This document shows, in pieces, positions 9,717-32,353 of a stretch of 34,316 bases of DNA (within the stretch, counting starts at the first letter, position 1; each line of letters begins with the position of its first letter). Made by a program: the position numbers and the translations under genes. The DNA comes from Opitutia bacterium Tous-C4FEB (GTDB lineage: Bacteria; Verrucomicrobiota; Verrucomicrobiia; Opitutales; Opitutaceae): assembly GCA_002304445.1 (NCBI GenBank), contig NEVA01000028.1, positions 1 through 34,316 of the forward strand, given 5' to 3'. The notes under the pieces are model-generated. The model made no database searches. It worked only from the letters and a program-made list of their open reading frames with translations, and was not told where the DNA came from.

Positions 9717-10880
9717 TCAGAGTCCCGCGCCGTCGCGGAGGGTGCCGGCGGCGCAGACTTCGCGGTAGAAATTGAGGTAGTATTCGACGATCACTGGGGC
9801 GGAGAATTTTTCGGCGGCGCGTACTTGGGCGGCGTTGCCGAGGCGGGCGCGACGGGCGGGGTCGGTGAGGAGCGCGGTCGCGGCGGCGGCGAGCGCGGCG
9901 GTGTCCCCGGAAGGGACGAGGAGCCCGGTGGAACCATCGGTGATAACTTCGGGGATACCGCCGACGGCGGTCGAAACGCTGGGGCAGGCGAAGGCCATGG
10001 CTTCGAGGATGCTCAGGCAGAAACTCTCGCTCTCGGAGGCAAAGAGGCCGAGGTCGATGGCCTGGAGGTAGTCTTCGATCGCGGTGACGTTCTCGCGGAC
10101 GATGATGCGGCCGGTGAGACCGAGGCGGGAGACGTCGGCTTTGAACGCGGTGAAATCACCGCCGGCGAGGACGAGGAGTTTGCTGGTGCGGGGCTCGACG
10201 CGGGCGAAGGCTTCGAGCACGAGGTCGACGCGTTTGACGGGGCGAAGATTGGAAGAGTGAAAAAGGAGCAGTTCGTCGTCGGTGACGCCGAGTTCGCGGC
10301 GGACGGTGGCGCGGGTGCGGGCAGGAGCGCGCGGGGTGAAAAAATTGTGGATGACCTCGATGGGGCGCTTCACGCCGATGAGGCGCTGGGTCTCGGTGCG
10401 GAGAAATTCGGAGACGGTGGTGACGCCGTCGGTCGCTTCGAGGGCGTGGCGGATGGCGGGGCCATAACCGGCGTCGGCGCCGAGGAGGGTGGTATCGGTG
10501 CCGTGGAGCGTGGTGATGACTTTGGGCCGGCGGTGCTCGGGGAGCATGTCGCGCGCGAGGAGGGCGGCGGTCGTGTGGGGCACCGCATAGTGCGCGTGGA
10601 TGAGATCGAGGCCGTGGTCGCGGGACACTTCGGCGAGTTTCACCGAAAGCGGAAGCGTGTAGTCGGGATATTTGAAGAGACCGTAGCTGTTGATTTCGAC
10701 CGGGTGAAAATGGATGCGGGCGATGTCGACCGGGAGACGGAACGGACGTTCGTAACTGATGAAGTGGATCTCATGACCGCGGGCGGCGAGTTCTTCGCCG
10801 AGGGTGGTGGCGAGAATGCCGCTGCCGCCGACACTCGGGTAGCAGACGATACCGATCTTGAGCGGGGCGAGGTTAGCCAT
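9717..10880 (-). CDS. bshA: N-acetyl-alpha-D-glucosaminyl L-malate synthase
   Basis: A 387-residue GT4 glycosyltransferase catalysing the first step of bacillithiol synthesis: UDP-GlcNAc plus L-malate to GlcNAc-malate. The N-terminus KIGIVCYPSVGGSGILATTL is the BshA signature (CYPxxGGSGxxAxxLG), followed by HEIHFISYERPFR and DLIHAHYAVPH. The sugar-nucleotide binding half has EVIHNFF, LLFHSSNLRPVKR and the GT4 Ex7E-type motif in FASESESFCLSILEAMAFACP. Length matches the family. It lies 6 bp downstream of the bshB1 gene on the same strand, so both steps share a transcript. Confidence 0.93.
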   Translation of the reverse strand: MANLAPLKIGIVCYPSVGGSGILATTLGEELAARGHEIHFISYERPFRLPVDIARIHFHPVEINSYGLFKYPDYTLPLSVKLAEVSRDHGLDLIHAHYAVPHTTAALLARDMLPEHRRPKVITTLHGTDTTLLGADAGYGPAIRHALEATDGVTTVSEFLRTETQRLIGVKRPIEVIHNFFTPRAPARTRATVRRELGVTDDELLLFHSSNLRPVKRVDLVLEAFARVEPRTSKLLVLAGGDFTAFKADVSRLGLTGRIIVRENVTAIEDYLQAIDLGLFASESESFCLSILEAMAFACPSVSTAVGGIPEVITDGSTGLLVPSGDTAALAAAATALLTDPARRARLGNAAQVRAAEKFSAPVIVEYYLNFYREVCAAGTLRDGAGL

Positions 10881-10886
10881 GACGGG

Positions 10887-11609
10887 CTAGAAACGCCTCG
10901 CGGTGTGGCTGAGGACGGCGAGCGAATTGACGACGAGAGGATCGGCGGGCCAGAGGGGGATGGCTTGGGCGACGCCGGCCCGGAGACCGTGGAAGCGGGC
11001 GCGGGTGAGTTGGAGTTCGACGTAGTCGCGCGTGGCGGCCTGGGAGGCGTGGGCTTGCATGGCGGCGGTCCACGTCGCGATCACGGGGGAAACATCGACG
11101 AGCACCGGTGAGGCGTCGCGGGCTTCGGCGTCGGAGGTGATGGCGTAGTGCAGGAGCGTATTGATGGCGTGGGCGGGGGTGCCACGAAGTTCGGCGACGC
11201 CGCCGTAGCGGGCGAGGCGGGAGGCGTTGCGGACAATTTTGCCGAGGACGGAGTGATCGGGGTGTTGGTTCTCGTTGACGGTGGGCGCGAGGACGAGGGC
11301 GGGTTTTACGCGGCGGATGATCGCCGCGATGGTGAGCGAGTGGGGGAGTGAAGGGACGAAGTGGGCGTCGCCGCCGAGGTCGATGAACTCGAGGGTGACG
11401 CCGAGGAGGGCGGCGGCTTTCTCGGCCTCGGCGGTGCGCACGGCGGGGGTGCCGTTGGTGCCGGCTTCGCCGCGGGAGCAGACCACGAAATGAACGGGCC
11501 GGCCGGCGGCGGTCTCAAGGGCGATGATCCCGCCGGCGCCGAATTCGATGTCGTCGGGGTGGGCACCGAAGGCGAGGAGCGGAGGAAGCGGAGTGGCGGT
11601 GGAAGACAC
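10887..11609 (-). CDS. bshB1: bacillithiol biosynthesis deacetylase BshB1
   Basis: A PIG-L/LmbE-fold zinc hydrolase that removes the acetyl group from GlcNAc-malate, the second step of bacillithiol synthesis. The zinc-binding AHPDDIEFGAGG motif lies close to the start. It is followed by the BshB1-typical CSRGEAGTNGTPAVRTAEAE, LEFIDLGGDAHF and the late NENQHPDHSVLGKIV block with the second zinc His. I chose the GTG at 11609 (240 residues, usual family length); the frame extends to a TTG at 11651 (254 residues), and no clear ribosome-binding site decides between them. Placed 6 bp before bshA. Confidence 0.9.
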   Translation of the reverse strand: MSSTATPLPPLLAFGAHPDDIEFGAGGIIALETAAGRPVHFVVCSRGEAGTNGTPAVRTAEAEKAAALLGVTLEFIDLGGDAHFVPSLPHSLTIAAIIRRVKPALVLAPTVNENQHPDHSVLGKIVRNASRLARYGGVAELRGTPAHAINTLLHYAITSDAEARDASPVLVDVSPVIATWTAAMQAHASQAATRDYVELQLTRARFHGLRAGVAQAIPLWPADPLVVNSLAVLSHTARRF

Positions 11610-11678
11610 GGGAGTAAGATCAGACGAGTTTGGTCCCGAAAGTCGATGCAACGAGCGGGAACGGCGGCGCGGGGCGGA

Positions 11679-12461
11679 CTATTCGGTGTAGGCTTCGTCG
11701 GAGCGGTCGATGGGGTCGCGGGTCACGAAAGTGATCTCGGGCGCGTCGGCGTGGTTGAGGTAGGCTTGTTCGCCGGCGCCGGCGATGTAGTGCGTGCAAT
11801 GGATCACGGATTGCATCCAACGGAGGCGGCTGTCGCGTGACGGGCTGATTTGCGCCGGGTCGAAGGGCGCAGGGCCCACGGTCGCGGGCGGGAGCGTGAG
11901 GAAAGAGTTGCCGCCTTCGTGGAGCTGCAGCGTGCCCTCGGCGGTGCGGCGGGCGCGGACGAGTTCGCTGTCGTGGGTGACATCAACGAAGCAGTCGGTG
12001 ATCGGGCAGGCGGCGCGCCGGAAAGCGGGGTCGGAGGAGCGGACGACGCGGATGCCATCGAGGTGGCCGAGGGCGCGGTAGAGATCGAGGCAGAAGTCGG
12101 CGACGGTGGTGGCGGTGATGGCCTTGAAGGCGGCGACTTGCGGCGGGGCGACGTAGGCGGGGAGCTGGCGGGCGGTGGCGTCGCGCCAGTCGGCGGGGAT
12201 TTTTTTGGCGTAAAGCGGGGAGAACTTGCGCTGGGTTTTGTTGGCGAAGGTGAAGTTGAAGGTAAGGGGCGCGTCGGTCTTGCGGTGGCGGAGCGTGGTC
12301 TGGGTCTCGCGGGGATCGTGGTCGCTGTCGTGGTAGAAGAAGACGATCTCGCCGCCGATCTCGGCTTGGAGGCGGCGGGCGGTGACGATCTTAGCGTAGA
12401 GGAAGCGCCGCGGGAAAAAACCGCAGGGTTGCTGACCGAAACAGATGACGGGGGCGGGCAT
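11679..12461 (-). CDS. short BshC-like protein, putative bacillithiol ligase
   Basis: A 260-residue protein beginning MPAPVICFGQQPCGFFPRRF. It has GQQ at residues 9-11, an aligned FLYAKIVTARRLQAEIG helix and FFYHDSDHDPRE (42-52). This order and spacing mirrors the N-terminal core of BshC (GQQxGLxxGPLYTxYK, then VPVFWxxxEDHDxxE), the enzyme that adds cysteine in bacillithiol synthesis. BshC is normally ~520-540 residues; this protein is half that and lacks the coiled-coil part. It sits directly upstream of bshB1 and bshA, which supports the assignment. The upstream frame continues to 12662 but only through heptamer repeats, so the ATG at 12461 is used. An alternative is an uncharacterised Opitutaceae protein with chance similarity. 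Confidence 0.55.
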   Translation of the reverse strand: MPAPVICFGQQPCGFFPRRFLYAKIVTARRLQAEIGGEIVFFYHDSDHDPRETQTTLRHRKTDAPLTFNFTFANKTQRKFSPLYAKKIPADWRDATARQLPAYVAPPQVAAFKAITATTVADFCLDLYRALGHLDGIRVVRSSDPAFRRAACPITDCFVDVTHDSELVRARRTAEGTLQLHEGGNSFLTLPPATVGPAPFDPAQISPSRDSRLRWMQSVIHCTHYIAGAGEQAYLNHADAPEITFVTRDPIDRSDEAYTE

Positions 12462-12710: not shown

Positions 12711-14438
12711 TTAGATCGGAGCGGGGGCGGAGGTGCCGCGGTTACTTTTTGGGAGGACGGCTTGGAGGATCACGGCGAAGAGGACGCAGGTGAAGCAGCC
12801 GATGGGGTTGAGCCAGAGGTAGGCGATTTCGCGGGCGGGGTAGGCTTTGCCGAGGAAGAAAAGCGCGATGACGACGGTCTGCGCGGCGACGGCGGCCCAG
12901 AAAACGGCGGTGCCTTTCACGTGCTTCAGGAAAAATGCCACGATGAAGACGCCGAGGAGCGCGGGATAGAAAATCGAGGCGACGATGTTGAGGGCCTCGA
13001 TGAGGTTTTCCGCAAAGCTCACGAAGAGCGCGAAGGCGATGGCGAAGAGGCCCCAGATGGCGGTGAAGGTTTTTGCGACGCGGACGTTGCGGGTTTCGTC
13101 GTGGGCGGCGAGGGGGCGGAAGCTTCGCCAAAGGTCGATCGTGCTGGTGGTGCCGAGGGCGTTGAGTTCGCCGGCTTTCGAGGAGAGCGCCGAGGCAAAC
13201 ATCACGGCGAGGAGCAGGCCGATGACACCGTGGGGGAGCTGGGTGAGGATGAAATTGATGAAGACGTAGTCGGAGTCCTTGGTTTTTTTGGTGGTGGGGT
13301 CGGCGAGCTGGAGGGCGGCGCGGGCTTCTTTGCGGACGACGTCGGTGGCTTTTTGCGCGGCGACGAGGTCGGCTTTGGCGGCGGCGGTGACGGCGGGATC
13401 GGCGGCGTCTTGCGCGGCGGTCCAGGCGCGGATCTTTTCCTGTTTAACGAGGTGGAGGGCGGTGTGTTTCTCGTCGATGGCGCGGAGGGAGGCACCTTGG
13501 GGGCCGTCGAGCTGGCGTTGCCACTGGGTCTGGTTGTAGAGGACGGGGGTGTTGGGCTGGAGCTGGTAGAAGACGAAGAGCAGCGCGCCGAGAAACACGA
13601 TGAAGAGCTGCATCGGGATCTTGAGGAGGGCGTTGAACATGAGGCCGAGGCGGCTTTCGCGCAGGTGGGCGCCGCCGATGTAGCGTTGGACTTGGGATTG
13701 GTCGGTGCCGAAGTAGGAGAGTGAGAGAAAGAAGCCGCCGAGGATACCGCTCCAAATGGTGTAACGGACTTTGAGGTCGGGGTTGTAATCGACGGCTTGG
13801 AGTTTCCCCATGGCGCCGGCGATCGGGAGGGCGTCGGCGGGGAGTTTGGTGAGCAAAATGACGAAGGCGGTGAGCATGCCGCCGAAGATGACGGCCATCT
13901 GCCATTTTTGGGTAAGGTTCACGGCGGCGCTGCCACCGGTGACGGTGTAAACGATGGCGAGGAGGCCGGTGCAGATGATGGTGAGGTCGAGCCGCCAGCC
14001 GAGGACGGTGGAGAGGATGATGGCGGGCGCGTAGATGGTGATGCCGGACTGGAGACCGCGTTGGAGGACGAAGATGCCCGCGCCGAGGAGGCGGGTTTTG
14101 CGGTCGAAGCGTTGGCCAAGATACTCGTAGGCGGTGTAGACGCCGAGCTTGCGGTAAATCGGGAGAAACACGGCGCAGACCACGATCAGCGCGAGCGGGA
14201 GACCGAAATAATTTTGGATGAAGGCGATGCCGTTCTCCGTGGCCTGACCGGGCAGGGAGAGGTAGGTGATCGTGCTGGCCTGCGTCGCCATGACGGAGAG
14301 CCCGATGGTGCCCCACTTGGTCGTGGCGCTGCCCTTGAGGTAGGTATTGAGGTTGTCGGTGTGGCGGGTGCGCCACGTGCCGTAGGCGGCGATGCCGACG
14401 ATCGCGCCGAGAAGAACGAGCCAGTCGAGGGCGTTCAT
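12711..14438 (-). CDS. sodium:solute symporter (SSS family)
   Basis: A 575-residue inner-membrane transporter of the SSS/LeuT fold, with ~13 predicted helices. Residues 46-66 (GLSVMATQASTITYLSLPGQ) form helix 1 with the Ser-Thr pair used for sodium binding. GGSAAVNLTQKWQM (168-181) and FGTDQSQVQRYIGG (243-256) are typical of this family. A long hydrophilic loop at ~295-388, rich in Lys, Ala and Gln, separates two helices. The ATG at 14438 is favoured because it forms ATGA with the stop of the small membrane protein upstream. Substrate is unknown; the operon places it between a secreted PIG-L deacetylase and the bacillithiol genes. Confidence 0.9.
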   Translation of the reverse strand: MNALDWLVLLGAIVGIAAYGTWRTRHTDNLNTYLKGSATTKWGTIGLSVMATQASTITYLSLPGQATENGIAFIQNYFGLPLALIVVCAVFLPIYRKLGVYTAYEYLGQRFDRKTRLLGAGIFVLQRGLQSGITIYAPAIILSTVLGWRLDLTIICTGLLAIVYTVTGGSAAVNLTQKWQMAVIFGGMLTAFVILLTKLPADALPIAGAMGKLQAVDYNPDLKVRYTIWSGILGGFFLSLSYFGTDQSQVQRYIGGAHLRESRLGLMFNALLKIPMQLFIVFLGALLFVFYQLQPNTPVLYNQTQWQRQLDGPQGASLRAIDEKHTALHLVKQEKIRAWTAAQDAADPAVTAAAKADLVAAQKATDVVRKEARAALQLADPTTKKTKDSDYVFINFILTQLPHGVIGLLLAVMFASALSSKAGELNALGTTSTIDLWRSFRPLAAHDETRNVRVAKTFTAIWGLFAIAFALFVSFAENLIEALNIVASIFYPALLGVFIVAFFLKHVKGTAVFWAAVAAQTVVIALFFLGKAYPAREIAYLWLNPIGCFTCVLFAVILQAVLPKSNRGTSAPAPI

Positions 14439-14611
14439 GCGTAGGCGCGGGTGAAAAAGGTGAGGGCGATCACGATGAACACGAAAACGCCAAGGACGAA
14501 GAGGTAGACGCCGCGCCATGTACGAAAGCCGGGGACGCCGGGGGCGTCGTTAGCGGAGTCGGGAGTAGGTGACGGCGAGGGCAGGGGTGCGGGTGGTGGA
14601 AGCGGGGGCAC
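14435..14611 (-). CDS. 58-residue single-helix membrane protein coupled to the symporter
   Basis: A small frame with a GTG start (14609-14611) begins MPPLPPPAPLPSPSPTP, a proline-rich N-terminus. After GVPGFRTWRG it has one transmembrane helix (VYLFVLGVFVFIVIALTFF) and ends TRAYA. Its TGA overlaps the symporter ATG as ATGA, indicating translational coupling and a shared function. Small partner proteins encoded directly ahead of SSS transporters are known (for example DUF485 with ActP), so it may be an accessory or assembly subunit. There is no clear ribosome-binding site at the GTG, so the exact start is uncertain, but the helix and overlap argue strongly that the frame is translated. Confidence 0.65.
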   Translation of the reverse strand: MPPLPPPAPLPSPSPTPDSANDAPGVPGFRTWRGVYLFVLGVFVFIVIALTFFTRAYA

Positions 14612-14640: not shown

Positions 14641-14671
14641 GGAGGGCGGGTCGGAGACCCTGCCCTACTTT
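14641..14671. repeat. palindromic repeat copy A, at the PIG-L stop codon
   Basis: AGGGCGGGTCGGAGACCCTG followed by CCCTACTTTTT. The core is an imperfect inverted repeat GGGCGGGTC/GACCCTGCCC with a GGA loop. The copy includes the TAG stop of the PIG-L gene. A second near-identical copy follows the DUF2911 gene (17323-17353). Confidence 0.7.
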
Positions 14672-17190
14672 TTACCGAGGGAGATGAGGTTGGCGAAGAG
14701 GCGGTAGGCGCCGGGGACGCCGGCGGGGAGTTGGCGGAAGAAGCCGAGGCCCGTGTAAACGTAGTAGCCTTTGCCGTGCCGGGCGACGAGCAGGCCGCCG
14801 CGTTGCGGTTTCTCGCCGGCGTCGGCGCAGGCGAGGAGCGGGGTGAACTCGGGGCCCCAGGTGGTGCCGAAATACGCGCCGCGCTCTTGGACCCAGCCGG
14901 TCCAGTCGGCGGGGGTGAGCTTGTTGGGGACGTTGAACGCGGGATGGTTCGGCTCGAGGAGGGTGATGGCGGCGTCCTCATCGGTGACGCGGGCGTCGTT
15001 GCCGCCGAGGGTGAGGGCGAAGGGGGCGAGGCGGTCGGTCTTAATGTCGCGGCCGGGGCGGTTGTATTGGGTGATGACGGTGCCGCCCTGCTCGACCCAG
15101 GCGAAGAGGCCGGCGAGGTTGGCGGAGAGACCTTCGCGGACGTTGAAGGCGCGGACGCCGGTCACGACGGCGTCGAAGGCGGCGAGTTTTTCGGGCGTGA
15201 GATCGGCATCGGTGAGGGTGGTGACGGTGCAACCGAGTTGGGCGAGGGCGGCGGGGATGTCGTCGCCGGCGCCGGGGAGGAAGCCGATTTTTTTGGCGGT
15301 GACGGCGACGTCGAAGGCGACGGCGCGTTGGCGGGCGAGGGGTTGCAGGACCTGGGGCGGAATATGCGGGTAGTTCACTTCGTCGCGGGCGTGGCGGTAG
15401 GTCGCGGTGCCGATCGTGGCCATGGCGCCGAGGGTGGCGGTGGACGCGGCGGGAGAAGCGGTGACGGCGAAGGTGAGGCGGGATTTCGCGCCGACGGCAG
15501 CGAGGGTGAAGGGCTGTGCGGCGGGGGTGGCTTTCCAGCCGGCGGGGAGTTCGAGGGCGACGGAGCCGGTGCGGTCGGGGCGGTTGGCGGAGATTTCAAC
15601 GTCGACGGAGCGGGTGGCGCCGGGGGTGAGGACGGTGACATCGGAGGTGAACGTGAGCGACACGGGCGGAACGACGTCGAGGCGGCGGCGTTTTTCCGTG
15701 GGTCCCGAGCCGGAGACGGAGCGGGGTTCGTCGGCGATGGTGAGTTGTTGGCCGGCGATTTCAAAAACGTAGGAGAACGGGAAGGCGGGTTTGTTCTCCG
15801 CGTCGCCGATGAGGGCGGGGTCGTCGACGCGGGCAAAGCCGGGGCGGCCCTCGACGCGGAGCCAGTAGGGGGTGGTGAGCGGAGTGGACGCGGGGATTTC
15901 GATTTTCGATTTTTGAATTTCGATTTTCGATTGGACGGAGATTTCGGCGGTGAGGGTTTTGCCGGTGGAGTCGCGCGTGCTGAGCCAGCGGACGGGAACG
16001 ATGGAGGAAACAGTGTGGGTGAGATCGAGAGTTTCGCCGGCGACGACGTCGGCGGTGGCGGATGTGGTCGCGACGGTGAGGCCAAGGCAGGCGATGAGGG
16101 CGCGGTCGAGTTGCGCGCGTTTGTCGGTGACGAGGGGATCGGCTGGCAGCGTCGCGAGGGCGGCGCGGAGGGCGAGCAGGGCGGGGACGTTGGCGGCGAG
16201 ATTTTTTTGGTCGAAGGCGGACTCGGCGGCGGCGGCGAGGGCGTCGATTTTCTCGCCGGGGCCGGGGTAACGGGCGGTCCAAGTGGTGGCGACGCCCTCG
16301 AACAGGCCGGACTTGGTGGGTTCGCCGCCGAGGGGATAAAAGAGTTCGGTGCGGGGGCCGCCGACGCCGGCGCCGCGGCCTTGGCCGAAGATGACGCCGC
16401 CGAGATTTTGGGTTTTGTGCTCGGCGAGGACGCGGAGGGAGAGGGTGGAGAGCGGGATGCCGAGGACGGGATCGTTGCCCTCGACGAGGACGGAAACGGA
16501 ATCGACGGTGGGGGCGGCGCGGCCGAAGGAGCCGTTTTGAAGGATGCGTTTGGGCTGCCAAGGCTTCAGGCCCTGGGCGAGTTGCTCGGGGTAGGCTTTG
16601 GGGTCGCCGGCGAGTTTGAAGGCCTCGATGGAAAGGACGGCGGAGGCCGTGTGGTGGCCGTGGGTGCCGCCGGGTTGGGGCGAGAAACGGGTCAGAATGA
16701 TGTCGGGCTGGAAGCGGCGGATGACGCGGACCATGTCGCCGATGACTTCGTCGCGGCCCCAGACGCGTTGGGTGTCGGCGTAGTCTTTGGAGAAACCGAA
16801 ATCGAGGGCGCGGGAGAAAAACTGTTGGGCACCATCGAGGCGGCGGCCGGCGAGGAGTTCCTGAGTGCGGGCGATGCCGAGTTTGTCGCCGAGCTCGGGG
16901 CCGATGACGTTTTGACCACCGTCGCCGCGGGTGAGGGAGAGGTAGGCGGTGCGGTAGCCGCGGCCGCGGGAGAGCCAGGCGAGGAACTGGGTGTTTTCGT
17001 CGTCGGGATGGGCGGCAGTGTAAAGGACGGAGCCGAGTTCGCGGAATTGGCGCAGGTCGAGGAGGGCGGCGGGGATGGTGGGCGCGGCCGGGGCGGCGGG
17101 TGGCGGGGCGGGCTGCGCGGTCACGGGGGAAAGGGTGGCGAGTAAGAACAGCGCGGAGGCAAGGGCGGTGACTTTGGGCGGGAGGCTCAT
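14665..17190 (-). CDS. exported large PIG-L family deacetylase
   Basis: An 841-residue secreted protein with signal peptide MSLPPKVTALASALFLLATL, cleaved near TAQPAP. The N-terminal PIG-L domain (~50-300) has zinc-binding AAHPDDE at 59-65 and a late GGTHGHHTAS (174-183) that supplies the second zinc His and catalytic region. The middle (~410-640) is beta-rich and resembles NEW3-type sandwich modules (SVALELPAGWKATP). The C-terminus (~660-841) looks like a class I glutamine-amidotransferase-like domain, with AAFDAVVTGVRAFNVREG and FAWVEQGGTVITQYNRPG. Such proteins deacetylate N-acetyl sugars or amidated conjugates outside the cytoplasm. It is the first gene of a minus-strand run reaching bshA. 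Confidence 0.85.
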   Translation of the reverse strand: MSLPPKVTALASALFLLATLSPVTAQPAPPPAAPAAPTIPAALLDLRQFRELGSVLYTAAHPDDENTQFLAWLSRGRGYRTAYLSLTRGDGGQNVIGPELGDKLGIARTQELLAGRRLDGAQQFFSRALDFGFSKDYADTQRVWGRDEVIGDMVRVIRRFQPDIILTRFSPQPGGTHGHHTASAVLSIEAFKLAGDPKAYPEQLAQGLKPWQPKRILQNGSFGRAAPTVDSVSVLVEGNDPVLGIPLSTLSLRVLAEHKTQNLGGVIFGQGRGAGVGGPRTELFYPLGGEPTKSGLFEGVATTWTARYPGPGEKIDALAAAAESAFDQKNLAANVPALLALRAALATLPADPLVTDKRAQLDRALIACLGLTVATTSATADVVAGETLDLTHTVSSIVPVRWLSTRDSTGKTLTAEISVQSKIEIQKSKIEIPASTPLTTPYWLRVEGRPGFARVDDPALIGDAENKPAFPFSYVFEIAGQQLTIADEPRSVSGSGPTEKRRRLDVVPPVSLTFTSDVTVLTPGATRSVDVEISANRPDRTGSVALELPAGWKATPAAQPFTLAAVGAKSRLTFAVTASPAASTATLGAMATIGTATYRHARDEVNYPHIPPQVLQPLARQRAVAFDVAVTAKKIGFLPGAGDDIPAALAQLGCTVTTLTDADLTPEKLAAFDAVVTGVRAFNVREGLSANLAGLFAWVEQGGTVITQYNRPGRDIKTDRLAPFALTLGGNDARVTDEDAAITLLEPNHPAFNVPNKLTPADWTGWVQERGAYFGTTWGPEFTPLLACADAGEKPQRGGLLVARHGKGYYVYTGLGFFRQLPAGVPGAYRLFANLISLGKK

Positions 17191-17322: not shown

Positions 17323-17353
17323 AGGGCGGGTCGGAGACCCTGCCCTACTTTTT
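17323..17353. repeat. palindromic repeat copy B, at the DUF2911 stop codon
   Basis: AGGGCGGGTCGGAGACCCTG then CCCTACTTTTT, identical to copy A at 14641-14671 across the core. It lies directly after the DUF2911 stop and before the intrinsic terminator. Confidence 0.7.
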
Positions 17354-18236
17354 ATTTCAGGGAGGCGATGAGCTTCTGGTTCAGGCCGGTGTATTCTTCG
17401 CCGATGGCTCCGCCGGCTTTTTGGGCGGCGGCGAGCGAGGCTTGGGCGGAGGCGAGGGCTCCGGCTTTGTCGCCGGCGGCGGCTTGAATGAGACCTTTGC
17501 GATAGACGAGGTAGAAGGCATTGGGCTGGGCGGCGATGGCGGCGTCCATCCAGGTGGCGGCTTTCTTCAGGTCGATTTTGTGGTCGAGGTAGAACATGGC
17601 GGCGGCGGCGTAGGGCTTCTTCGCGGCGTCGGAGGCCATGGCGGCTTCGATCTGGGGCACGAGGGTGGCTACGAGGTCGACCTTGATGGCGACGGGCACG
17701 CGGACGTTGGCCCAGGAGAGATTGAGCGTGGCGGATTCGTCGCGGAGGTCGTTGAAGCCGATCTCAAGGGTCTCGACGGCGGCGGCGAGAGCGACGGGCT
17801 TAACGGTCACGCGGGCGACGTCGTTCTCCTGTTTGTAAGCGTAGGCACCCCAACTGGAGGAGTCTTTGTGGACGATGACGGTCCACTCCTTTTCGCCGGG
17901 GATGGTGAAGAGCTCGTAGGAGCCGGCGGGGATGGCGGCGCCGCCGAAGTTTACCGGGGTGGAGAATTTGATCTTGGTGGCGGTGTTGGCGCCGGTGCGC
18001 CAGATTTTGCCGTAGGGGACGAGGGCGCCGAAGACGACGCGGCCTTTGGCGCTGGGGCGGGCGTAGAGGAGCTCGATGTCGGTGATGCCCACGCGCTGTT
18101 TGAGCATGATGGACGGGCTGGCGGCGGGGAATTCGAGTTTCGGCGCGGCGGGAGCCGCGGTCTGGGCGGTGAGGTTCGCGGTGAGGGCGAAGGCGAGCCC
18201 AAGCAGGGCGAGGGAGCGGGCGGGATTTGGTTTCAT
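17352..18236 (-). CDS. exported DUF2911 domain protein
   Basis: A 294-residue protein with a signal peptide (MKPNPARSLALLGLAFALTA, cleaved near TAQTAAPA). Residues ~40-180 match DUF2911: a start SPSIMLKQRVGITDIELLYA, then RPSAKGRVVFGALVPYGKIW, RTGANTATKIKF, GSYELFTIPG, WTVIVHKD, and WGAYAYKQENDVARV. The C-terminal ~100 residues are helical and Ala-rich (DAAIAAQPNAFYLVYRKGLI), resembling TPR repeats. DUF2911 proteins are common in Bacteroidota and Verrucomicrobiota and their biochemical role is unknown. It ends in a strong intrinsic terminator, so it closes its transcript. Confidence 0.85.
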   Translation of the reverse strand: MKPNPARSLALLGLAFALTANLTAQTAAPAAPKLEFPAASPSIMLKQRVGITDIELLYARPSAKGRVVFGALVPYGKIWRTGANTATKIKFSTPVNFGGAAIPAGSYELFTIPGEKEWTVIVHKDSSSWGAYAYKQENDVARVTVKPVALAAAVETLEIGFNDLRDESATLNLSWANVRVPVAIKVDLVATLVPQIEAAMASDAAKKPYAAAAMFYLDHKIDLKKAATWMDAAIAAQPNAFYLVYRKGLIQAAAGDKAGALASAQASLAAAQKAGGAIGEEYTGLNQKLIASLK

Positions 18237-29435: not shown

Positions 29436-30911
29436 ATGAGCGACGCACTTCAAATCCTTGCAAACGCGATAGCAGCAGGCTCAGCCACAACAAGCGAAGC
29501 CATCGGCGAGGCCATTAAAGGCCTTTTCGGTTCACGGTTCCACAAACGCTCCGCCTCGCATCTTGACCACGAGCGTCCACCATTCATTCGCAATGCGTAT
29601 GGAAGAAGCGGCGCCGAGTCCGAGCACGTCGCATATGCAGGTTTCATAAATCCGGACAACCCACCAAGCGGACCCTATGGAGGAACCAGTTTGGTCTGGT
29701 TTCCCCGCCCAGAGGGATGTTTGATCGACTTCGGGATAGGAACGCGGGGCCTTAGTCCAGATGAGGGTGTTTTGACGCGCCCCGGCCATCGCCGTCGGAT
29801 CGAGAGTCTTCGAAAGCACTTGGTTGGCCTCGGTGTTACAGCGTGGGCACGACAGGACCCTGCGACGATGGGCGTTCCAGTGCCAAAGGTGGTAACCGAT
29901 CTGTTGCCCGCCTGGAAACCGGTTTTCGATAGATATGGCAACGAGCTCTACTGCTTGGCGGAAGTGCCAAAGGATAACCCCGAGCTCGCGAAGCGCGTAG
30001 TGCGGGCCTTCGTTGATCTTTACGCATATGAGCGGGGTTGGGAGGCTCTGACGGAGGCGAAAGATGAATATCAATCGTTCATCGCAAGCCTACACGGGGC
30101 ATGGCTGGCGACTCCGTCAAAAGATGAGATCACTCGGCTCTTAAAATCCCGTCGCTTTGTTGTTCTTGAAGGTCCTCCTGGCACGGGTAAGTCGCGAATC
30201 GCAAAACAGATTCTGAACGAGGTTTTCGCTGACAACGGCGTCATTACCCAATTTCACCCCTCGACGACATACGAAGATTTTGTCGCCGGTTTGTCGCCCG
30301 ACGTTGCTAATGCCGCATTGCGATTCCAAGCACGTGCTGGTCATCTAATGGAGGCCGCGAAGAAGGCCGGAAACAACGACGCTCTTCTTGTAATCGACGA
30401 GATCAACCGCGCAGACCTAGGGCGTGTTCTCGGTGAGGCGATCTATCTCTTTGAAGCAGGACACAATGAGGAAGTCCGGGTAGTGAGGCTGCCCCATGCA
30501 ATCGATGGCGTGCACGAATTCGGCCTGCCTCGCAATCTGTTTGTCCTCGCCACTATGAACACCGCAGATCGCAGTGTCGCACGCATGGACCTAGCCATTC
30601 GCCGAAGGTTCGCGTTCATAACGATGATGCCTGATCGGGAAGTCGTGAAGTCCACTAGCACGGAAATGGGGCTGAAGCTATTTGACGCATTGTGTGATGT
30701 ATTTCTTGAGTTTGCCCCCGACGACGCACTGGCCCTGATGCCGGGACACTCCTATTTCATTGCAAGTGACGATGGAGTGCTGCGAGACCGCCTGCGTTAC
30801 GAACTGCTTCCGCTCGTGGACGAATATCTTCGTGAGGGTTACCTGGGCCCGGCTTCTGGAGCGCTTCATGCCGTTCGCAACCTTATCGCTGACTCAAGCT
30901 CTAGCTCCTAG
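29436..30911 (+). CDS. McrB-like AAA+ GTPase/ATPase of a modification-dependent restriction system
   Basis: A 491-residue protein. The AAA+ module (~235-420) has Walker A GPPGTGKS (246-253), FHPSTTYEDFVAGLSP (274-289), Walker B LLVIDEINRADL (317-328) and the McrB signature ATMNTADRSVARMDLAIRRR (372-391). McrB hexamers translocate DNA and drive the McrC nuclease. The N-terminal ~220 residues, with VWFPRPEGCLIDFGIGTRGL (87-106) and GHRRRIESLRKHL (117-129), should recognise the target, but I cannot assign them to DUF3578, EVE or another known McrB reader. The mcrC-like start is 2 bp after the stop. GC is clearly lower than in flanking genes, pointing to horizontal transfer. Confidence 0.9.
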   Translation: MSDALQILANAIAAGSATTSEAIGEAIKGLFGSRFHKRSASHLDHERPPFIRNAYGRSGAESEHVAYAGFINPDNPPSGPYGGTSLVWFPRPEGCLIDFGIGTRGLSPDEGVLTRPGHRRRIESLRKHLVGLGVTAWARQDPATMGVPVPKVVTDLLPAWKPVFDRYGNELYCLAEVPKDNPELAKRVVRAFVDLYAYERGWEALTEAKDEYQSFIASLHGAWLATPSKDEITRLLKSRRFVVLEGPPGTGKSRIAKQILNEVFADNGVITQFHPSTTYEDFVAGLSPDVANAALRFQARAGHLMEAAKKAGNNDALLVIDEINRADLGRVLGEAIYLFEAGHNEEVRVVRLPHAIDGVHEFGLPRNLFVLATMNTADRSVARMDLAIRRRFAFITMMPDREVVKSTSTEMGLKLFDALCDVFLEFAPDDALALMPGHSYFIASDDGVLRDRLRYELLPLVDEYLREGYLGPASGALHAVRNLIADSSSSS

Positions 30912-30913
30912 TT

Positions 30914-32353
30914 ATGGCGAGAAAATCGACTGCACCCCGTGGTTCCAGGGTGGCTAAAGCAAGGTCGCCGGGGGTTCATGTCGCTAGGACGCCAAACCCA
31001 CAGCCTTTGCTGCATGCGGTCGATAACGGCCCCACGGTATGCGTCGACCCATCTCCTTATATTTCTGCAGGACGTGATCCTGGTTGGGGTCCGCATTTGG
31101 ATGGTTTCTTGTCACGCAACCGCGAAGCTCTGGCCGCAATCGGTGCCGAGCCTCTCGTTGTTGCTGGTCGCAACGGAATAAGGCTTGAGCTAAAGCCCGG
31201 GCATTCGGCTGGGGCTGTTCCTCTCCGCTCGCCCGTTTCGGGACAAGTCGCGGGAGGATTAGTTGTATCTCCTAGATTCGGTTGGCCCGGAGTGGGCCGG
31301 GTTTTGGCAGCAACGGGTTGGGGAAGTGGGCCTCAATTTCTAACACAGCCGCTCGTCCCAGGAAGTGGTAGGGAAGTGCCGCCGTGGGTGCTCGCTGGTC
31401 CCGTCCTCCAGCGTCTCACAGATCTGTTGTCACACCTAAAACCTGGATACCAAGAGTGCATCGAAGTCCGCACTCATCCCCGTGGTCAGATTCAGTGGTC
31501 GACATACATCGCAAAGCAGATGGCAACTGGACGTTGGCATCATTTGCCCTGTAAATTCAGCGAACTTGGCACTGATTCGCGCTTGCGTCAGACGATTCGG
31601 TGGACGCTTGAGCGTATCCGCCTTGATCTTGCCGCAACCGGTGGCAGCGATCCGATGGCGTTGATCTTGGCGACACTGGCAATGCACCTCCTTGATCAAG
31701 TCGCTGACGTGCCCTCCCGGAGGCCTTATCGTGGCGAATTGGAACGTAATCTCGGTGCGGGTCCACTGACTTCGGCGGTCCTGCGAGAAGGACTCAGAGC
31801 CATTGGCTGGATTGTAGATGAACGAGGGCTTGGGGGTGGCCGCAGTTCCGACGGGCTCGCGTGGACTTTGCCGTTGGAAACCTTGTGGGAGAGGTATGTC
31901 GAGAAATTCGCCCGCTCAGAGGCCTCGCTTTCGGGCGGGCGTGTAAGAGTTGGCCGTCTCGGAGAGACTACCGTGCCGCTGTCTTGGGATCATCGAAGTC
32001 ACCGTGCAATCGGACACTTGGTTCCTGATATCATCGTTGAGAATCCAAAAGGGATCGAAATTATCGACGCAAAATACAAAGCTCACTTTGCTGATCTTGA
32101 TGTGGCGGGATGGAACGCTTTTACCGACGACGCCAAAGAAAGCCTTCGCGCCGATGTTCACCAAGTATTAGCGTATGCAGCGGTTTGCGGCGATGTAGCG
32201 AACGTCACGGCGACCTTGGTATATCCTGTTTCTGCTGGCTTGTATCACGAGTTGAATTTGCGCTCACAACACATCGTGTCCGCTTCGATCCCAGTGGGAA
32301 CTCTAGTGAAACAATTGCGACTACGTGCTCTGCCATTTTCTGGTCTTACTTGA
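30914..32353 (+). CDS. McrC-like PD-(D/E)xK nuclease
   Basis: A 479-residue protein. The C-terminal nuclease core has the PD-(D/E)xK layout of McrC: HLVPDIIVENP (Asp372), then IEIIDAKYK (Asp385, Lys387), and DVHQVLAYAAV (Gln417). The N-terminal ~330 residues are the McrC segment that binds the McrB ring, including TLPLETLWERYVEKF (318-332). With the gene upstream it should cut DNA carrying modified cytosines. The two genes are separated by 2 bp, so they form an operon. Codon use is AT-richer than in the chromosome genes nearby. All catalytic residues are present, so it looks active. Confidence 0.9.
   Translation: MARKSTAPRGSRVAKARSPGVHVARTPNPQPLLHAVDNGPTVCVDPSPYISAGRDPGWGPHLDGFLSRNREALAAIGAEPLVVAGRNGIRLELKPGHSAGAVPLRSPVSGQVAGGLVVSPRFGWPGVGRVLAATGWGSGPQFLTQPLVPGSGREVPPWVLAGPVLQRLTDLLSHLKPGYQECIEVRTHPRGQIQWSTYIAKQMATGRWHHLPCKFSELGTDSRLRQTIRWTLERIRLDLAATGGSDPMALILATLAMHLLDQVADVPSRRPYRGELERNLGAGPLTSAVLREGLRAIGWIVDERGLGGGRSSDGLAWTLPLETLWERYVEKFARSEASLSGGRVRVGRLGETTVPLSWDHRSHRAIGHLVPDIIVENPKGIEIIDAKYKAHFADLDVAGWNAFTDDAKESLRADVHQVLAYAAVCGDVANVTATLVYPVSAGLYHELNLRSQHIVSASIPVGTLVKQLRLRALPFSGLT

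Follow-up and report, generated by a model that had tools for sequence, protein, structure and literature searches.

The 260-residue protein that we describe here, hereafter X, is likely a minimal form of BshC that lacks the coiled coil and ligates glucosaminyl-malate with an amino acid, in all probability cysteine, yielding a thiol of the bacillithiol type; this activity is inferred. X is encoded in the window, by which we mean the whole 34,316-nucleotide stretch of DNA analysed, taken from Opitutia bacterium Tous-C4FEB (its assembly, 39 contigs totalling 3.76 Mb, is 96% complete). We link X to BshC because structure, profile and genomic context together point to that protein; plain sequence searches gave nothing. 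Relative to known BshC proteins X is new, a half-size variant without the coiled coil that lies outside the curated family.

A conserved gene upstream of bshB1 and bshA

The reading frame of X opens with an ATG at 12461, and its stop codon ends at 11679 on the minus strand. A longer reading of 327 residues can be started from a GTG; homologues align only from about residue 4, and in plus-strand loci the few residues examined upstream of the start look unrelated, or meet a stop within 1–7 residues (for instance in L004, L026, L015 and L014). The initial annotation of this DNA had placed a 260-residue protein directly before bshB1 and bshA, an arrangement that is borne out: the open reading frame is real, and next on the strand come a deacetylase resembling BshB1 and an unambiguous BshA (Table 1), with gaps of 27 bases between X and the deacetylase and 6 bases between the deacetylase and BshA. 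In the direction of minus-strand transcription, the computed gene order runs from the DUF2911 protein through the 841-residue PIG-L protein, the symporter, X and the BshB1-like deacetylase to BshA. The identity of BshA is secure, with 402.4 bits to TIGR03999 (cut-off 273.7) and the BshA structure 5d00 as its best PDB match. For the deacetylase, the best NCBIfam model is that of BshB1 (E 5.9e-38, 130.8 bits), which it matches below the cut-off of 182.5 bits, and its PDB relatives include 6p2t, a solved GlcNAc-malate deacetylase.

Table 1. Features of the window around X, with the evidence on which each description rests.
Feature	Coordinates	Strand	Basis
X, putative 260-aa minimal BshC-like ligase (BshC catalytic core without coiled coil)	11679..12461	-	AF2 fold, 4wbd match, BshC replacement in BshA-positive phylum genomes
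BshB1-like PIG-L deacetylase, TTG start uncertain	10887..11651	-	TIGR04001 below cut-off; 6p2t E 3.6e-17
BshA, N-acetyl-glucosaminyl L-malate synthase	9717..10880	-	TIGR03999 over cut-off; 5d00 E 1.9e-90
Sodium:solute symporter (SSF), conserved neighbour upstream of X, no substrate assigned	12711..14519	-	PF00474, TIGR00813
841-aa PIG-L-domain protein, signal-peptide-like N-terminus (by eye), conserved neighbour	14665..17190	-	PF02585 E 3.6e-13
DUF2911 protein, next gene upstream of the 841-aa PIG-L protein	17352..18236	-	

The window copy of X has no match in Pfam or NCBIfam at E <= 10 and none in PADLOC, and searches of PDB sequences, by phmmer with the window protein and by hmmsearch with the X profile, gave no relevant match and did not recover BshC; the sole hit of the profile was an irrelevant response regulator (E 0.81). 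Relatives of X are nonetheless numerous in genomes. A draw of 57 genomes centred on the source genome, which is itself counted, contains 29 with X or a relative, and a scan of a genome collection confirmed 312 relatives; plasmid records held no match at E <= 0.01. The taxa named among the best 80 of these 312 are Verrucomicrobia, Opitutia, Opitutaceae, individual genera of these groups and one Limisphaerales. Across an alignment of 32 sequences, mean column identity is 74% and many residues are invariant. When the window copy was compared with 25 relatives, dN/dS lay between 0.11 and 0.34 in 23 comparisons, the other two being saturated and giving no value. X is therefore an intact protein under purifying selection. 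One alignment (A1) comprised the window copy and 25 of 28 other loci, omitting L008, L011 and the fragment L029, and another (A2) had 32 rows and omitted L003–L006, L008–L011, L029 and the repeats L001, L040 and L043; named loci (the best 80 of 312) and unnamed loci overlap in part in the genomes that they represent, so that the two sets are not independent.

The genes that follow X are tightly conserved with it. At all 73 loci where the sequence extends 2.2 kb or more beyond X, bshB1 follows on the same strand, and bshA is also found downstream at 69 of these. Among the best 80 of the 312 loci, bshB1 is found no more than 400 bases after X on the same strand in 79, the 80th locus ending 417 bases after X, and among the 29 loci around the source genome it lies in the flank of 27, the other two ending close to X. 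Four loci (L093, L100, L130 and L132) carry X and bshB1 without a bshA in the 4.1–5 kb of downstream sequence fetched; in these genomes bshA may sit elsewhere.

For 63 loci, 4.5 kb or more of sequence is available upstream of X; the symporter is present there on the same strand at 59 of them and the 841-residue PIG-L protein at 57. Neither was found upstream in four close relatives (L057, L058, L060 and L065). These two proteins are possible partners in uptake or turnover of the thiol. Matches to DUF2911 occur at 41 of the best 80 of 312 loci, even though many of these 80 end before or within the DUF2911 gene.

Predicted fold and relation to BshC

An AlphaFold2 model of X, computed from the 32-row alignment, is of high confidence (pLDDT 95.0, pTM 0.91). 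Comparison of this model with the PDB by Foldseek returned a single match at E <= 0.001, the Bacillus subtilis BshC structure 4wbd (E 4.5e-10, probability 1.00, TM-score 0.66 by query length), and VIA structural alignment superposed 242 of the 260 residues on 4wbd with a Z of 20.1, an rmsd of 3.0 and 16% identity. The next structural match is the class I lysyl-tRNA synthetase 1irx, with a Z of 14.3 over 207 residues; the remaining aminoacyl-tRNA synthetases reach 9.1 or lower. On the strength of this ranking, the predicted structure of X is a class I synthetase-like core that is closest to BshC. A fold unrelated to that of BshC had been named at the outset as grounds for abandoning the assignment, and this refutation is not met, since the predicted fold is that of BshC. 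The lysyl-tRNA synthetase shares with X the catalytic fold of the superfamily; unlike X it is a chain of 507 residues, and it gives no sequence match. As a control, we predicted a full-length BshC of this phylum from 4 sequences; the model was poor (pLDDT 59.8) and was not compared with other folds. Between about residues 66 and 346 its strands and helices follow one another, as judged by eye, much as those of X do, an observation that is suggestive only.

At the level of sequence, the GQQ and DSDHD motifs that had been singled out in X are present (GQQ at residues 9–11, HDSDHD at residues 44–49); the spacing that had been called right is only approximate, with 38 residues from the first G of GQQ to the first D of DHD in X versus 44 in BshC. 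The residues common to both proteins are, in X numbering, G9, Q10, Q11, K24, A28, D47, H48, D49, E52, R212, Q217, G228, E231 and Y234, the C-terminal pairs having been matched partly by eye. GQQ, DHDxxE, the R/Q pair and GxxExxY are invariant in 32 X sequences and in seven BshC sequences and stand in the same order, with the spacing from R to Q one residue longer in X. After the tyrosine of GxxExxY, X ends 26 residues later and the 539-residue BshC of B. velezensis about 180 later. Compared with X, the latter has some 80 extra residues before the common region and some 160, coiled coil included, after the last arginine that can be paired (R377).

Alignment of the 32 X sequences with the seven BshC sequences by hhalign gave an E of 5.6e-4 with a probability of only 29.8, over the segment from GQQ to DHD, from profiles that are shallow. 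Under other settings, the best segment in profile alignment was the block from R to GxxExxY, with a score of 32.6 that none of 200 column shuffles reached (maximum 24.0; reversed profile, 14.5), and the C-terminal half of the X profile alone scored 32.0, again above every one of 200 shuffles (maximum 23.7). The N-terminal half, with GQQ and DHD, scored 18.3 alone, which 27 of 200 shuffles reached. As evidence for BshC, the motifs of the N-terminal half thus stand in the correct register, and that half is not significant by itself. Judged from these profile comparisons, the resemblance of X to BshC is more than chance.

The curated models take a stricter line. Three of the 32 X members match PF10079, the BshC Rossmann domain, at E <= 10, two of them below 1e-4 (best 7.3e-5, 22.7 bits); no member exceeds the gathering score of 27 bits, and the window protein has no PF10079 match at all. 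TIGR03998, the BshC equivalog model (529 positions, cut-off 265.8 bits), finds nothing in the source genome at E <= 0.001 and does not match X at E <= 10. The profile search that had been proposed as a check thus yields a significant C-terminal block, and X fails to pass the curated thresholds.

Among the characters that we took as criteria for BshC, X has a class I aminoacyl-tRNA synthetase-like Rossmann catalytic core of BshC topology (in the predicted model), the signature residues and a genomic link to bshA and bshB, and lacks a C-terminal coiled-coil dimerisation domain; the model has no long helix at its C-terminal end. What X has in common with BshC as represented by TIGR03998, PF10079 and 4wbd is thus the Rossmann core, GQQ, a lysine, DHDxxE, R, Q, GxxExxY, the bshA/bshB context and the phyletic place; what sets it apart is a length of 260 rather than about 530 residues, the absence of the N-terminal residues and of the dimerisation domain, and the low identity. 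Below the model cut-offs and without the coiled coil, X falls outside the curated BshC family as that family is defined. X is related to the catalytic domain of BshC and probably works as BshC does, an activity that is inferred.

Apart from these common positions, C124, C222 and H224 of X (11682–12461, minus strand) are invariant in the 32 X sequences and absent at the aligned places from the seven BshC sequences. Going by the sequence alone, a metal- or thiol-handling role for them is conceivable.

X and BshC across Verrucomicrobiota

The phylum was sampled evenly with 288 genomes; BshA scored over its cut-off in 19, with weaker matches in all 288, as expected for a glycosyltransferase family. 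Searched with the same draw and settings, the X profile was found in 17 genomes, all of them among the 19 with BshA, and in none of the other 269. A search of the 19 for BshC was positive in two, which are exactly the two without X; in both, BshC lies on the contig of BshA, within about 1.3 kb. The class to which these two belong (that of G100) was represented by 118 genomes, 4 of them with BshC; the two further carriers, G334 and G339, fell outside the X search. The BshC search covered 19 of the 288 phylum genomes, the 118 of this class and 250 of the family, and not all 288.

The family draw gave a similar picture. Among its 250 genomes, BshA was detected at E <= 1e-70 in 156 (over cut-off in 154) and X in 158; both were present in 154 genomes, X only in 4, BshA only in 2, and neither in 90. 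Five of the six genomes with a single gene were inspected (all but G513), and in each of the five a contig ends at or before the place of the missing gene. Fisher tests of this co-occurrence ignore shared ancestry. BshC was found in none of the 250 family genomes, some of which are incomplete assemblies, and the same search was positive in B. subtilis, Thermus composti and Deinobacterium chartae among 14 controls. All genome draws were made within Verrucomicrobiota. Gene presence, as computed here, fits a replacement of BshC by X in BshA-positive genomes.

A normal BshC encoded elsewhere was considered as a way of explaining the missing enzyme and set aside, as no match was found in the source genome or in the 250 family genomes, with the same caveat about completeness. 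The initial annotation had held that such a gene, together with a lack of conservation with bshA and bshB1, would count against its proposal; no full-length BshC was found in these genomes, and X is tightly conserved with both genes. Its two suggestions, a minimal BshC or a replacement enzyme in lineages lacking BshC, are supported and here amount to the same thing, a coil-less core in place of full-length BshC. Its description of the last step as long unassigned does not hold in general: bshC is an assigned gene, even if its activity had not been demonstrated in vitro according to the available portion of a 2015 review (PMC4360819).

We also searched 36 genomes for the bacillithiol recycling genes of other bacteria. 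YpdA, the bacillithiol-disulfide reductase (TIGR04018), was over its cut-off in none of the 17 X-carrying genomes, with weaker matches to its flavoprotein family in all 36, and the bacilliredoxins PF06491 and PF11009 (BrxC) were likewise found in none of the 17. Each of the three was present in two of the 36 genomes, namely the two with BshC, both of which have all three; a further 17 genomes, which lack both X and a BshA over cut-off, had none of them. Their absence from the X genomes, where they had been expected, counts against a plain bacillithiol reading: either other oxidoreductases recycle the thiol there, or the compound differs. That the product of the X operon is bacillithiol is an inference, as no thiol has been measured.

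Proposed reaction and alternative readings

In the pathway that we propose, BshA would form GlcNAc-malate, from which the PIG-L deacetylase would strip the acetyl group to leave a free amine on glucosaminyl-malate. X would bind this amino-sugar together with activated cysteine in a pocket that GQQ, DHDxxE, RxxxxQ and GxxExxY presumably line, and would form an amide between the carboxyl of the amino acid, most likely cysteine, and the free amine. The default assumption for activation, as cysteinyl-AMP from ATP, would follow by analogy with MshC, the mycothiol cysteine ligase and a CysRS paralogue, which catalyses the analogous attachment of cysteine to the amine of glucosamine as a class I aminoacyl-tRNA synthetase-like enzyme (PMC2922099, on the portion available). 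Neither MshC nor CysRS is among the 50 structural matches listed for X, where BshC is by far the best; a relation to them is not excluded. Ligation by X would proceed without the N-terminal stretch of BshC and without the dimerising coiled coil, which BshC requires for dimerisation according to the accessible part of PMC4360819. If X is the ligase, one lineage would seem able to do without the coil. The chemistry, the cysteine substrate, its donor and the product are all inferred.

A different chemistry at the same step is a possibility that we think quite unlikely: X might ligate another amino acid or use a modified acceptor, and the operon would then make a bacillithiol-like compound and not bacillithiol. 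The absence of YpdA over cut-off and of bacilliredoxins from the 17 X genomes would agree with this, as would a BshB1 homologue below its equivalog cut-off and the three residues C124, C222 and H224, invariant in X and missing from the seven BshC; on the other side stand a BshA well over its cut-off, the many residues common to X and BshC, and the consideration that not every user of the thiol need have the recycling enzymes of Bacillus. A broader proposal, which we offer as speculation with a modest chance of being right, is that the Opitutaceae operon constitutes its own branch of bacillithiol biosynthesis, with a coil-less one-domain ligase, a thiol or amino-sugar conjugate other than bacillithiol, recycling unrelated to YpdA and the bacilliredoxins, and, for uptake or turnover, a sodium symporter of its own and a PIG-L enzyme that is secreted.

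We find it very improbable that X is an accessory or regulatory protein with the BshC fold and that an unrelated enzyme elsewhere carries out the last step. Catalytic data for X are lacking, the coiled coil is missing, and the active-site residues of BshC are not experimentally established in the literature consulted, all of which leave room for such a role; yet X stands in the place of BshC and co-occurs with BshA, and the residues that it shares with BshC are strongly conserved. That X is a functionless remnant of a decayed or truncated BshC is scarcely tenable: only its half length speaks for this, against 312 confirmed relatives, the 74% mean column identity over 32 sequences, dN/dS well below 1 across many genera, and a confident, compact predicted fold over the whole chain. 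We regard a pseudogene or truncation as excluded by purifying selection and conservation. The minimal BshC remains the reading that we prefer.

If X works as proposed, a whole bacterial family gains a predicted thiol, in a phylum for which none had been predicted by 2018: the available text of that paper places Verrucomicrobia among the major lineages without a documented or predicted low-molecular-weight thiol (PMC6282198). Surveys of thiol biosynthesis with such criteria would miss X by design: as far as their available portions state, one takes similar length as a criterion for BshC (PMC6282198) and another, of 43 phyla, demands both length and 80% coverage (PMC12719100). A search of the open-access literature, by title and start of abstract, found no paper on a short BshC or on bacillithiol in Opitutaceae. 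As a small, natural, single-domain version that reveals which residues are kept, X would be a good subject for solving the mechanism of BshC, an enzyme without demonstrated in vitro activity by 2015.

Elsewhere in the window, adjacent plus-strand genes at 29436–32353 for an AAA_5 ATPase and a PF10117 McrBC component, of which PADLOC matched the ATPase only weakly and the PF10117 protein not at all, have the look of an McrBC-type restriction system.
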